DNA from: Carboxydocella thermautotrophica
GTDB lineage: Bacteria > Bacillota > GCA-003054495 > Carboxydocellales > Carboxydocellaceae
Assembly (NCBI GenBank): GCA_003054495.1
Contig: CP028514.1
Location: forward strand, 12,501-76,500
Direction of reading: 5' to 3'
Length of the DNA: 64,000 bases
Part shown: positions 58,377 through 63,917 of the stretch, piece after piece
Numbering within the stretch: position 1 is the first letter of the stretch
Layout: every line of letters begins with the position of its first letter
Notes under the pieces: model-generated
Told to the model about the DNA's origin: nothing
What the model saw: only the letters and a program-made list of their open reading frames with translations
Database searches by the model: none
Program-made: the position numbers and the translations under genes

Positions 58377-58421
58377 TTTGTGCCAAATTGCACTTTCATA
58401 GTGGGGGAAGGAGAAGAGCAA

Positions 58422-61400
58422 ATGACCAGAGGGCTGGTCGGGCCCTTGCTTCAGGCGAAAGAACTCCAGGATTTGTGGCGGGATTTAGGAGTAAAGAAAA
58501 AAACCGCCCTGGTCTATGGAGTAAGCGGAGCGGTGTCTGCTTCATTACTGGCGGCCTGGTACCGTTTGCGGCAGCAACCTCTGCTAGCCATAGTAAGGGA
58601 TCTGGCTGATGCAAAACGTCTATGTGATGACTTGAGCACATTTTTGCCGGAAGAGGAGATTTTACTCTATCCGGCCCAGGAACTATTACCATGGGACATT
58701 GAAGCCAGTAGCCGGGAGTTATTAACTGCCCGGCTAAAAGTGCTGGGCGCGCTGGCCAGAGGGCGCACCTCACTGATAGTGGCTCCCGTTGCTGCTTTAA
58801 GCCGGGCGGTCACACCACCGGAGCAATTCAAAAATTATCTGGTTACCCTGAACAAAGGCCAGGAAATAGAGCCGACCGCCCTGGCGGCTCAACTTCTCCA
58901 GATGGGTTATGAACGGGTATCCCAGGTGGAAGTAGCAGGGCAATTCAGCTGGCGCGGAGGAATTGTCGATATTTTTCCGGCCTCGGCCAGTGAACCGGTG
59001 CGCCTGGAATTTTTTGATGTAGAAATTGATTCCTTGCGCCTTTTTGACCCGGTGAGCCAGCGCTCTTTGCGGGAAATAGAGCAGGCGGAGATTCTGCCGG
59101 CCCGGGATTATTTTGCCACTGCTGCTGATTGGCAACAGGCAGCCAGGGTGCTGGAAAAAGAGTACCAGAATTTGCGCAAAAAACTGATCGGGCTTCAACA
59201 GAGGGAAGCAGTGGGGCGTTTGGATCAGAAGCTGAAGGATTTGCTGAGCCGGCTCAAGGAGGGCCTGATTCCTGCTGGTCTGGATGCCTTCGCCGCCTAT
59301 GTAATGCCAGAAAAAGCTACCCTGCTGGACTACTTGCCGACCGGGGCGCTGATAGCCGTCGAAGATCCCAACCGGGTCAGGGAAAAGGCGCTGGCCTGGG
59401 ATGATGAGCGTGGAGAAACCTTTGCCAGCTGGCTGGAACGGGGTATGGCTTTGCCCGGGCAGGAAGCTTTATATTTCAGCTGGGAAGATATATGGCGGCA
59501 GCTGACAGGAAGGCCCTTGCTGGGCCTGGCCCTTTTGCCCAGGGAGCAAACAGGCTGGCGGCCCGAACTTCTGTTAAACCTGAACAGCCGGACGGCGCCC
59601 CTGTATCAGGGAAATCTGGAAGAATTGACCCGCGACTTAAAAAACTACAAACGTCAGGGCTATGCCGTCGCCCTGCTTACAACCCATACCCAGCGCAGCC
59701 AGCAGTTGCTGGATTTATTGAAAGAGGCGGAGATTGAAGCTGTATATTTAGGCCGATTGCAGCAGGAATTTCGGACTGGAAATATCGTTATCACCCGGGG
59801 GGAACTTTCAGCCGGTTTTGAGTTTCCCCAGAGCAAAATCCTGATTTTAACGGAGAGAGAGCTTTTTGGCCAGAGCAAAAAGGGCAGAAAAGCCCGGGAA
59901 ATTAAGCCTGCTGGCGGCCAGAAAATCAGCGCTTTTACCGACCTCAAGATCGGGGATTATGTAGTTCATGTCAATCACGGGATCGGGGTGTATGAAGGGG
60001 TTGAACAGCTGAGCGTTGGCGGTATTACCCGGGACTACCTGGTGGTAAGCTATGCCGGGGCCGATCGCCTCTATATCCCTACGGAACAGATTAGCCTGTT
60101 GCAAAAGTACATCGGTACTGATGGGCAAAAACCCAGGATCAGTAAACTGGGCGGGCAGGAATGGCAAAAAGCCAAGGCCAAAGCCAGAAGTGCGGTCAAA
60201 GAGATGGCCGAGGAGCTGATCAAGCTCTACGCTGCCCGCGAAGCCCTAAAGGGTTTTGCCTTTTCGCCGGATACCGTCTGGCAGCAGGAATTTGAACAGG
60301 CCTTTCCTTATGAGGAGACTCCGGACCAGTTGCAGGCTATTGCCGAAATCAAGGCCGATATGGAACGGCCCCGGCCCATGGATCGTCTCCTGTGCGGGGA
60401 TGTGGGCTATGGCAAAACCGAAGTAGCTTTGCGGGCAGCCTTTAAAGCCGTAATGGACAACAAACAGGTAGCCATCCTGGTGCCGACCACCATCCTGGCC
60501 CAGCAGCATTACAATACCTGTCTGGAGAGGTTTCAGGGCTTTCCGGTTTCCATTGACCTGCTCAGCCGTTTTCGCAGTGCCCGGGAACAAAAAGCTACCT
60601 TAAAGAAACTGGCCAGTGGCCAGGTGGATATTATAATAGGTACTCATCGGCTGTTACAGGATGATGTAAAGTTCAGAGACCTGGGGCTGTTGATAGTCGA
60701 TGAGGAACAGCGCTTTGGTGTTGCCCATAAGGAAAAACTGAAACAATTAAAACAGACGGTGGATGTCTTGACCTTAAGCGCAACCCCCATTCCCCGGACA
60801 TTACACATGGCTCTGGCGGGGGTTAGGGATATGAGCTTGCTGGAAACCCCGCCGGAAGAAAGATATCCAGTACAGACCTTTGTGGTGGAATTCAATCCTC
60901 TGATGATCCGGGATGCTATCCTGCGGGAACTGGCCCGCGGGGGACAGGTCTATTTTGTTCACAACCGCATTGAAGACATGGATCGCATCTTTACCTTCCT
61001 GACCCAGCTGGTACCCGAGGCCCGCATAGCAATTGGACATGGACAGATGAGGGAAGATGAGCTGGAAAAGGTCATGCTGGATTTTCTCAACCAGGAATAT
61101 GATGTTCTGCTCTGTACTACCATTATTGAAACCGGTCTGGATATTCCCAATGTTAATACCATCATTATCGATAATGCTGATACCATGGGTCTGGCCCAGC
61201 TCTATCAGCTGCGGGGCCGGGTGGGACGCAGTAATCGTATGGCCTATGCCTATTTAACCTATCGCAAGGATAAGGTATTGACGGAAATTGCGGAAAAAAG
61301 GTTGCAGACATTACGGGAGTTTACCGAGCTGGGTTCCGGGTTCAAGATAGCCATGCGGGATCTGGAAATCAGGGGGGCCGGCAATTTACTAGGGCCGGAG

Positions 61401-61958
61401 CAACATGGTCATATTATGGCCATAGGTTTTGACCTTTACACTCAGATGCTGGAGGAAGCGATACGTGAGTTAAAAGGAGAAATCAAGGAAGAACCGCTGG
61501 AAACTACTGTGGAAATTGCAATAGATGCCTATCTGCCTGCAGACTACATCGAAGATGGTGCGGTAAAAATGGAGATTTACCGCAAAATCATGCTCTGCCG
61601 CACGGAAGAACAATTACTGGATTTGTCGGATGAGCTGGTAGACCGTTTTGGTGATCCGCCTTTACCGGTGGTCAACCTGTTGACTATTGCCAGAATAAAA
61701 ATTCTAGGCCAGGAAGCAGGCATTACCTATATCGGCAAACAACAGGAACATTTAATTATCAAGCTGGCACCTGATGCTCCTTTGGAGCCGGTCAAGATCC
61801 TGAGGTTACCGGGAAAGATTCGGGGGCTGAATATTGTCGGGGGTGCGGAGCCGGTTATAAGAGTGCCCTGGTCCAAACGGGACCCGGGGCTGAACTGGGT
61901 GGAAAAAATTATCAGGGAAATAAAATACTGTGGAATTGGTTCCGAGAATTTGGTATAA
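58422..61958 (+). CDS. mfd: Transcription-repair coupling factor
   Basis: 1178 aa, equal to B. subtilis Mfd. The N-terminal UvrB-like part (WRGGIVDIFPASASEPVRLE, FFDVEIDSLRLFD), the RNA polymerase-interacting Tudor-like domain (GDYVVHVNHGIGVYEG), then the RecG-like translocase: LLCGDVGYGKTEVALRA, VDEEQRFGV, TLSATPIPRTLHMA, QLRGRVGRSNR; a TRCF C-terminal domain ends it. ATG 58422 with GGAAGGAG; the longer TTG frame lacks an RBS. Confidence 0.97.
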   Translation: MTRGLVGPLLQAKELQDLWRDLGVKKKTALVYGVSGAVSASLLAAWYRLRQQPLLAIVRDLADAKRLCDDLSTFLPEEEILLYPAQELLPWDIEASSRELLTARLKVLGALARGRTSLIVAPVAALSRAVTPPEQFKNYLVTLNKGQEIEPTALAAQLLQMGYERVSQVEVAGQFSWRGGIVDIFPASASEPVRLEFFDVEIDSLRLFDPVSQRSLREIEQAEILPARDYFATAADWQQAARVLEKEYQNLRKKLIGLQQREAVGRLDQKLKDLLSRLKEGLIPAGLDAFAAYVMPEKATLLDYLPTGALIAVEDPNRVREKALAWDDERGETFASWLERGMALPGQEALYFSWEDIWRQLTGRPLLGLALLPREQTGWRPELLLNLNSRTAPLYQGNLEELTRDLKNYKRQGYAVALLTTHTQRSQQLLDLLKEAEIEAVYLGRLQQEFRTGNIVITRGELSAGFEFPQSKILILTERELFGQSKKGRKAREIKPAGGQKISAFTDLKIGDYVVHVNHGIGVYEGVEQLSVGGITRDYLVVSYAGADRLYIPTEQISLLQKYIGTDGQKPRISKLGGQEWQKAKAKARSAVKEMAEELIKLYAAREALKGFAFSPDTVWQQEFEQAFPYEETPDQLQAIAEIKADMERPRPMDRLLCGDVGYGKTEVALRAAFKAVMDNKQVAILVPTTILAQQHYNTCLERFQGFPVSIDLLSRFRSAREQKATLKKLASGQVDIIIGTHRLLQDDVKFRDLGLLIVDEEQRFGVAHKEKLKQLKQTVDVLTLSATPIPRTLHMALAGVRDMSLLETPPEERYPVQTFVVEFNPLMIRDAILRELARGGQVYFVHNRIEDMDRIFTFLTQLVPEARIAIGHGQMREDELEKVMLDFLNQEYDVLLCTTIIETGLDIPNVNTIIIDNADTMGLAQLYQLRGRVGRSNRMAYAYLTYRKDKVLTEIAEKRLQTLREFTELGSGFKIAMRDLEIRGAGNLLGPEQHGHIMAIGFDLYTQMLEEAIRELKGEIKEEPLETTVEIAIDAYLPADYIEDGAVKMEIYRKIMLCRTEEQLLDLSDELVDRFGDPPLPVVNLLTIARIKILGQEAGITYIGKQQEHLIIKLAPDAPLEPVKILRLPGKIRGLNIVGGAEPVIRVPWSKRDPGLNWVEKIIREIKYCGIGSENLV

Positions 61959-61991: not shown

Positions 61992-63083
61992 ATGTACAAA
62001 CTGAAAAAACTGGTTGCGTCCGTACTGACCGCTGCCATGCTGGCCCTGGTAGCCGGTTGCGGTAGCAATGCGGTAGCTACGGTTAATGGGGAGGATATCA
62101 CCAAGGAACAGTTTGAACGCCGCCTGGAAAAAATGAAAGCGGTATACAAGCAAAATGGAGCTAATTTTGACACCGAACAGGGTAAAGCTATGTTAAAGGC
62201 GATCCAGAAGCAGGTATTAGATGGCATGATCGAAGAAACTATCCTGTTGCAGGAAGCCAAAAAACAAGGGGTACTGCCTTCTGATGCCGATGTGCAGAAA
62301 CGGGTAGAAGAGACCATCAAGAAATTTGAATCCAAAGAAAAATTCCTGGAAGCCCTGAAGAATTATAACATGGATGAAAAGGAATTTGCGGAGTGGACTA
62401 AACAAAACCTGGCTCTGGATGCTCTGTATAACAAGGTAACTGCTAACATCAAGGTAACTGATGAGGAAATCAAGAAATATTATGAAGAAAACAAGGAACA
62501 GTTCAAGCAACCGGAACAGGTACGAGCCCGTCATATCCTGATCAAATTTGATACCCAGCAGGAAAAAGTAGGCCGGACTGAGGAACAGGCCAAGAAAATG
62601 GCCCAGGACCTGATCAAGGAACTGGAGAAAGGTGCTGACTTTGCCAAACTGGCTAAAGAAAAGTCTGAAGACCCAGGCTCTAAAGACAATGGTGGCGAAT
62701 ACACCTTTAGCCGTGGTCAGATGGTTCAGGAATTTGAAGATGCGGCTTTCTCTCTGAAACCGGGCAGCTTTACCAAGGAACCGGTAAAGACCCAGTATGG
62801 TTATCATATTATTAAGGTAGAAGAACGCATCCCTGCTAAAGAACGGACTTTTGAAGAAGTTAAAGGGGAACTGGCCCTGCAATTGCCCATGCAAAAGAAA
62901 CAGGAAGCTTTCGCCAAATATACTGCTGAGTTGAAGAGCAAGGCCAAAATCGAGATTAAGGACAAGGAGCTGGCCGCATCCCCGGCCCCTGCTCCCAGCA
63001 ACGGTAGCCAGTTACCTCCGGGCCATCCCAGTACTTCCGGTGGTAGCAGCAGCGCACCCCAGCCTGCTAAACCGGCGCAATAA
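61992..63083 (+). CDS. prsA: Lipoprotein peptidyl-prolyl isomerase, PrsA/SurA type
   Basis: 363 aa. Signal peptide with lipobox LVAGC (Cys at about 23). SurA-N-like helical region (VNGEDITKEQFERRLEKMK). Parvulin PPIC domain from about 175 to 275: VRARHILIKFDTQQEK, FAKLAKEKSEDPGSKDNGGE, and YGYHIIKVEER. The C-terminal tail is Pro/Ser/Gly rich. Folds exported proteins at the outer face of the membrane. GGGGATG RBS. Confidence 0.93.
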   Translation: MYKLKKLVASVLTAAMLALVAGCGSNAVATVNGEDITKEQFERRLEKMKAVYKQNGANFDTEQGKAMLKAIQKQVLDGMIEETILLQEAKKQGVLPSDADVQKRVEETIKKFESKEKFLEALKNYNMDEKEFAEWTKQNLALDALYNKVTANIKVTDEEIKKYYEENKEQFKQPEQVRARHILIKFDTQQEKVGRTEEQAKKMAQDLIKELEKGADFAKLAKEKSEDPGSKDNGGEYTFSRGQMVQEFEDAAFSLKPGSFTKEPVKTQYGYHIIKVEERIPAKERTFEEVKGELALQLPMQKKQEAFAKYTAELKSKAKIEIKDKELAASPAPAPSNGSQLPPGHPSTSGGSSSAPQPAKPAQ

Positions 63084-63117
63084 CGAAGTTCGAAGTTCGA
63101 GGTACGAGCTTCGAGAT
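63084..63117 (+). repeat. Heptanucleotide tandem repeat (TCGAAGT type)
   Basis: Five heptads of the form CGAAGT, TCGAAGT, TCGAGGT, ACGAGCT, TCGAGAT directly follow the prsA stop. TCGAAG and CTTCGA within it can pair. The unit is the same as in the 5' arm of the 23S rRNA intervening sequence. Confidence 0.7.
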
Positions 63118-63250
63118 GCAAAGAATTGGAATGCTAGGGTAGGCAGTTTAGAAGCGAGTATAACAAGGCACCGGAGGCGTACTGGAAGTACGTCGAGGAT
63201 GCCGCAGCGACAGCTGACGCAGTAATACGAAGCCTATAATCGGGCGAGCA
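63118..63250 (+). ncRNA. Structured non-coding stretch upstream of spoVT
   Basis: No supported ORF. GGCA (63167-63170) and TGCC (63200-63203) close a helix whose inner stem CGTACT-GGA-AGTACG extends to 8 bp by G-U and G-C pairs (about 63176-63194). A further GCCT...GGGC pairing occurs at about 63232-63245. Could be a small RNA, a leader or part of a dispersed repeat with the preceding heptads. Confidence 0.4.
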
Positions 63251-63258
63251 TAAGAAGT

Positions 63259-63350
63259 CTGACAATTTTGGTAGCATAATTCCCTTCCCGCCGATAAATA
63301 CTAACAGTGACAAAAAAATTGTCAGTTGGTATAAAGGAGGGAAGGGAATT
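63259..63350 (+). repeat. Two interleaved perfect inverted repeats over the spoVT promoter and RBS
   Basis: A: CTGACAATTTT (63259-63269) with AAAATTGTCAG (63315-63325), 11 bp. B: AATTCCCTTCCC (63278-63289) with GGGAAGGGAATT (63339-63350), 12 bp. The order A-B-A'-B' is that of a pseudoknot; B' contains part of the RBS. Confidence 0.85.
63274..63303 (+). promoter_or_regulatory. Sigma-G promoter of spoVT
   Basis: GCATA (63274-63278), 18-nt spacer, AATACTA (63297-63303), one mismatch from the forespore sigma-G consensus GMATR-N18-CATWMTA. The start point would be about 63310, leaving the RBS in the leader. B. subtilis spoVT is a sigma-G gene. Confidence 0.65.
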
Positions 63351-63353
63351 GTC

Positions 63354-63917
63354 ATGAAAGCAACAGGAATAGTTCGTCGGATTGATGACCTGGGACGGGT
63401 GGTAATACCGAAGGAAATCCGCCGCACTTTAAGGATCAGGGAAGGCGATCCGCTGGAGATTTTTGTCGATCGGGATGGAGAAGTGATCCTGAAAAAATAT
63501 TCCCCCATTGGGGAACTGGGTGATTTCGCCCGGGAGTATGCCGAATCTCTGCATGAAGCAGTCGGCCATATCTGTTGCATTACTGACCGGGACAATGTCA
63601 TTGCCGTAGCTGGAGGCTCTAAGAAAGAGTTTATGAATAAACCCATCGGTCCCGCAGTGGAAAAGGCGATGGAAGAAAGGAAAGCGGTTATTATCAATAA
63701 CCCGGGTGAACATCCCCATTGCCTGGGTTGTCCTGTGGATGATGAAGATGACACCTGCAAGTTTACAGCGGAAGTAATAGCACCCATTATAGCTGAAGGG
63801 GACCAGATCGGCGCAGTGTTGATTCTCTCTAAAGACCCCAATGTCAGGATGGGAGAACTGGAACTAAAGCTGGCTGAGACTGCAGCGGGCTTTTTGGCCA
63901 AACAAATGGAACAGTGA
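63354..63917 (+). CDS. spoVT: Stage V sporulation protein T
   Basis: 187 aa. N-terminal AbrB-type DNA-binding domain (MKATGIVRRIDDLGRVVIPK, EIRRTLRIREGDPLEIFV), C-terminal GAF domain with HPHCLGCPVDDEDDTC, which could bind a metal. Regulates sigma-G genes in the forespore. GGAGG lies 13 nt upstream and GGGAAGGG closer to the start. Located downstream of mfd and prsA as in Bacillus. Confidence 0.95.
   Translation: MKATGIVRRIDDLGRVVIPKEIRRTLRIREGDPLEIFVDRDGEVILKKYSPIGELGDFAREYAESLHEAVGHICCITDRDNVIAVAGGSKKEFMNKPIGPAVEKAMEERKAVIINNPGEHPHCLGCPVDDEDDTCKFTAEVIAPIIAEGDQIGAVLILSKDPNVRMGELELKLAETAAGFLAKQMEQ

Follow-up and report, generated by a model that had tools for sequence, protein, structure and literature searches.

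The spoVT gene of Carboxydocella thermautotrophica follows mfd and a prsA-like gene, in this order and all co-oriented on the + strand, and two inverted repeats precede it whose arms are spread over its promoter and its ribosome-binding site. The question raised by this locus is what the repeats do, either as DNA or as part of an RNA, and it is addressed here for a stretch of 64,000 nucleotides of contig CP028514.1 (the window) and for the upstream regions of related spoVT genes. The relevant features are collected in Table 1. The gap between the prsA-like gene and spoVT measures 270 nt, and a scan of positions 63050-63353 for terminator-like sites on the + strand found none; on the basis of this result and of the co-orientation, the prsA-like gene is the presumed source of RNA reading through into spoVT. 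An interspersed repeat of about 170 nt lies at 63084-63256, between the two genes, and has two more copies in the genome, one of which (L259, 76%) is located inside a tRNA gene cluster and the other (L260, 68%) upstream of an apparent ATP synthase c-subunit gene.

Table 1 Features of the spoVT locus, with positions counted from the first nucleotide of the window
Feature	Position	Strand	Remarks
mfd	58380-61958	+	
prsA-like peptidylprolyl isomerase gene	61992-63083	+	NCBIfam peptidylprolyl isomerase matches, below curated cut-offs
Arm A, CTGACAATTTT	63259-63269	+	True repeat of A', without supported role
-35 element GCATAA, sigma-G/sigma-F type	63274-63279	+	Consensus position kept in relatives
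Arm B, putative anti-Shine-Dalgarno in promoter spacer	63278-63292	+	Pairs with 63336-63350; spacer/SD pairing recurs in relatives
Promoter spacer, 17 nt	63280-63296	+	Between -35 and -10
-10 element AATACTA	63297-63303	+	Consensus kept in relatives
Inner part of predicted hairpin	63298-63332	+	63298-63305 with 63325-63332 and 63308-63313 with 63319-63324; includes A'
Arm A'	63315-63325	+	Partner of arm A; consumed by nested hairpin
spoVT Shine-Dalgarno sequence (SD), AGGAGGG	63335-63341	+	Read from the sequence; within arm B' except 63335
Arm B'	63336-63350	+	Partner of arm B; holds the spoVT SD
spoVT coding sequence	63354-63917	+	TIGR02851, 294.7 bits versus cut-off 235.9

A preliminary description of this DNA had reported two perfect inverted repeats of 11 and 12 bp, interleaved in the order A-B-A'-B', and both are present in exactly this arrangement. 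The A/A' repeat comprises 11 nt at 100% (63259-63269 / 63315-63325), and B/B' has a perfect core of 12 nt (63278-63289 / 63339-63350) which extends to 15 nt at 93% (63278-63292 / 63336-63350). Perfect inverted repeats of at least 11 nt occurred in 17 of 20,000 dinucleotide-shuffled 151-nt regions; when the window itself was cut into 1277 tiles, 23 of these contained one. A mobile element was rejected, the hairpin being single-copy in its genome, and an Rfam search of the region returned only microRNA-family matches far below the gathering score, which were taken as chance.

The promoter of the window, GCATAA-N17-AATACTA, is the equivalent of TGAATAA-N17-TATACTA in most relatives, and transcription of spoVT would accordingly start near 63310. 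With this start, arms A and B would lie upstream of the promoter-started RNA and arms A' and B' within it, which agrees with the earlier assignment of the former to the promoter region and of the latter to the leader and ribosome-binding site. In C. difficile, a similarity of the spoVT promoter to sigma-F as well as sigma-G sites has been reported (PMC3789822), so that use of sigma-F is possible at the promoter of the window, too. In the genomes of the relatives, the strict motif GAATAA-N17-TATACTA is nearly unique to spoVT, with mostly one to three matches per genome, and the sequence just 3' of the -10 element of the spoVT promoters is also conserved, often being TCACTGAAAG-like.

As RNA, positions 63278-63350 (73 nt) are predicted to fold as one nested hairpin of 28 bp and -35.4 kcal/mol. 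Its outer stem pairs 63278-63289 with 63339-63350 and 63291-63292 with 63336-63337, and all SD positions except 63335 and 63338 are paired. For the larger region 63250-63380, the predicted fold has -43.5 kcal/mol (z = -6.64), a value that no shuffled sequence reached. Within the B hairpin, 63298-63313 can additionally pair with 63319-63332, which the preliminary description had overlooked. This pairing uses arm A', and the pseudoknot proposed in that description, in which A:A' and B:B' would form jointly and mask the SD of read-through RNA, is therefore unnecessary. It is also very improbable: the two repeats have few mismatches or none and are interleaved, and A:A' alone would contribute -11.0 kcal/mol, but this helix would have to displace an inner stem which already pairs A' (63299-63333 alone, -10.8 kcal/mol), its probability is about 1e-20 in an ensemble of nested structures, and among relatives the A position pairs with the leader at p<=0.05 in 13/121 cases, only slightly above shuffled sequences, with which about 6 are expected.

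The RNA expected from a start near 63310 has a weak predicted structure (-9.9 kcal/mol over 84 nt), and the predicted probability that the SD of the window is unpaired amounts to 0.17 in the read-through RNA versus 0.57 in the promoter-started RNA. Shuffling of the spacer raised the value for the long RNA from 0.17 to 0.23, a small change because the rest of the leader pairs, too. We propose that arm B is an anti-Shine-Dalgarno sequence (anti-SD) residing in the spacer between the two elements of the spoVT forespore promoter. A transcript running through from the prsA-like gene, which has the same orientation, would include arm B, which would pair over the spoVT SD as a hairpin and cause poor translation, whereas RNA begun at the spoVT promoter would start 3' of the anti-SD and have a free SD, so that SpoVT would be produced only upon firing of the forespore promoter. 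Judged by sequence comparison and folding predictions, such a control of read-through RNA is the probable explanation for B/B' at spoVT.

The comparison with relatives was based on 215 non-identical spoVT upstream regions, 150 of which have a well-matching promoter near the gene; these loci are mutually related and were drawn from best protein matches, and their promoters are consensus calls. The genome G001 of the same species has a promoter and leader identical to those of the window and is hence uninformative. Spacers pairing with their own SD better than composition-preserving shuffles were found in 42 of the 150 loci at p<=0.05 (about 7.5 expected) and in 20 at p<=0.01. When each family was represented by one locus, a mean of 13.4 out of 45 families reached p<=0.05 (about 2.3 expected), and 15 families include at least one case of strong spacer/SD pairing. 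The nearest relatives, both belonging to the same order, carry the pairing as well (TTCCCTCC with GGAGGGAA, and TCCCTCCTT with AAGGAGGGA). About two thirds of the spoVT loci are without an anti-SD, and those with a GAGGGGT-type SD have it in 0 of 11 cases, so that the anti-SD is not general to spoVT. Among the leaders, those of L165, L171, L173, and L181 have a common block, approximately CGGGTGGCAGGTCCTCTGACACC, between the -10 element and the SD.

It might be argued that pyrimidine-rich spacers just happen to match a purine-rich SD, leaving translation unaffected. Spacers rich in C/T do pair easily with SDs rich in G/A, with shuffled spacers already averaging -6.4 kcal/mol, and the counts of loci are inflated by relatedness. 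Such a by-product is nevertheless unlikely, as the observed pairing exceeds that of shuffles which preserve the composition, as spacer and SD vary jointly (see below), and as only 4 of 26 sigG promoter spacers examined in the same genomes attain p<=0.05, the assignment of these promoters being rough in general and poor for sigG of the window's own genome. Furthermore, little excess is seen at neighbouring positions: in a scan with a sliding 17-nt window, the excess peaks at the spacer with 30% of the loci, compared to 6-7% just 5' of the -35 element and 0-5% over most of the 120 nt upstream.

The 45 loci reaching -14 kcal/mol in spacer/SD pairing are designated anti-SD loci. Their median predicted probability of an unpaired SD is 0.01 in read-through RNA versus 0.48 in promoter-started RNA, with a lower accessibility in the long RNA at 44 of the 45, a result that is partly circular because these loci were selected for strong pairing; at loci without an anti-SD, the values are 0.45 and 0.49, respectively.

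Spacer and SD also change together, as in the pairs ATCCCCC with GGGGGGAT and TTCCCTCC with GGAGGGAA. When the SDs were permuted among 40 strong unique pairs, the mean pairing dropped from -17.0 to -14.1 kcal/mol and none of 5000 permutations matched the real value, kinship being ignored in this test. In the loci picked for strong pairing, U-A (10) alternates with C-G (8) at SD column 2 and U-A (3) with A-U (7) at SD column 7. If the loci are classed by their SD alone, ATCCCC occurs solely with GGGGAT SDs (4/21) and TTCCCT solely with AGGGAA SDs (7/37). These observations point to a spacer/SD pairing maintained by compensatory change, with relatedness partly controlled. Conservation in relatives, which had been suggested as a check for both repeats, was thus found for B/B' and not for the A position; together with the predicted fold, the recurrence and covariation of B/B' support the earlier idea that an RNA started upstream would hide the ribosome-binding site.

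The same data bear on the alternative that the arms are DNA sites, by which SpoVT or another regulator would bind dyads across the promoter and control its own gene. SpoVT has an AbrB-type DNA-binding domain according to a profile match, the arms lie on and beside the promoter, and TGACAA/TTGTCA forms a short palindrome near the presumed transcription start. However, one arm is the SD itself and the other one tracks its changes, and neither the A/A' nor the TGACAA/TTGTCA sequences were seen in the leaders of relatives on inspection by eye. Moreover, spacer/SD mismatches on the mRNA strand comprise 16 U.G versus 2 C.A, which fits pairing of the mRNA strand, although it is in part expected because the SDs are G-rich. 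The reading of the repeats as SpoVT or AbrB operators, put forward in the preliminary description, is thus not favoured and appears improbable.

Returning to the anti-SD, loci that carry it appear to have fewer upstream terminators: a sequence resembling an intrinsic terminator precedes the promoter at 4/45 anti-SD loci versus 33/85 in the comparison (p = 2e-4), a link which is no more than suggestive, the median p being 0.07 with one locus per family. The distance from the upstream stop codon to the spoVT start is 96-171 nt at 17 of 18 anti-SD loci, the window being the outlier with 270 (Mann-Whitney p = 0.03 for the distance comparison, with values copied by hand).

Mechanisms of this kind are already known or proposed, and on sequence evidence the spoVT case appears to be alike. 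In the leader of the phage T4 lysozyme gene e, a long RNA started upstream hides the ribosome site, whereas the RNA of a later promoter, which lies across the 5' strand of the hairpin, escapes, with a measured effect of about 100-fold (PMC3014915). Similarly, the spoVT promoter holds the 5' strand, and the short RNA is predicted to be devoid of it; gene e differs in being a phage gene with late-promoter machinery and in that its effect was measured, that at spoVT being predicted. For sigG (spoIIIG) of B. subtilis, a hairpin of 20+ bp has been suggested to keep read-through RNA from being translated; in the RNA from the gene's own promoter, it cannot form (PMC5942855). Like sigG, spoVT is a forespore gene located behind a co-oriented upstream transcription unit and has a hairpin that is predicted to be confined to read-through RNA; the gene and the upstream operon are different ones, and at spoVT the promoter spacer supplies the 5' strand, whose sequence covaries with that of the SD in many Clostridia-type genomes. 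A further 5-bp hairpin of B. subtilis sigG covers the SD and lowers translation (PMC5942855), but it lies wholly inside the promoter-started RNA and dampens always, while the 5' strand at spoVT is located upstream of the presumed start. By its sequence, spoVT appears to share the layout of T4 gene e and B. subtilis sigG, with the 5' strand before its own start and the 3' strand over the SD, and according to the folding predictions its SD is occupied by pairing in the read-through RNA and accessible in the promoter-started RNA. No earlier report of such a hairpin at spoVT was found in the open-access papers searched.

A broader view is that Clostridia-type spore formers repeatedly use promoter-spacer anti-SDs as insulators at the level of translation, which would be swapped with terminators and would silence forespore genes in read-through RNA; it is offered tentatively and is rather doubtful at present. 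If arm B acts at spoVT as proposed, one stretch of 17 nt would double as promoter spacer and translation lock, and the gene of a developmental regulator directly behind a co-oriented gene would need no terminator for its insulation. Owing to the covariation, this lock can be tested by reporter swaps, and the search can be extended to other forespore genes. Beyond spoVT, strict matches to GMATAA-N17-TATACTA in 36 genomes were mostly without an SD-like complement when inspected by eye. At L301 and L304, the sigG spacers show good pairing with the SD of this gene (p = 0.002 each) and resemble the hairpin proposed for B. subtilis sigG.
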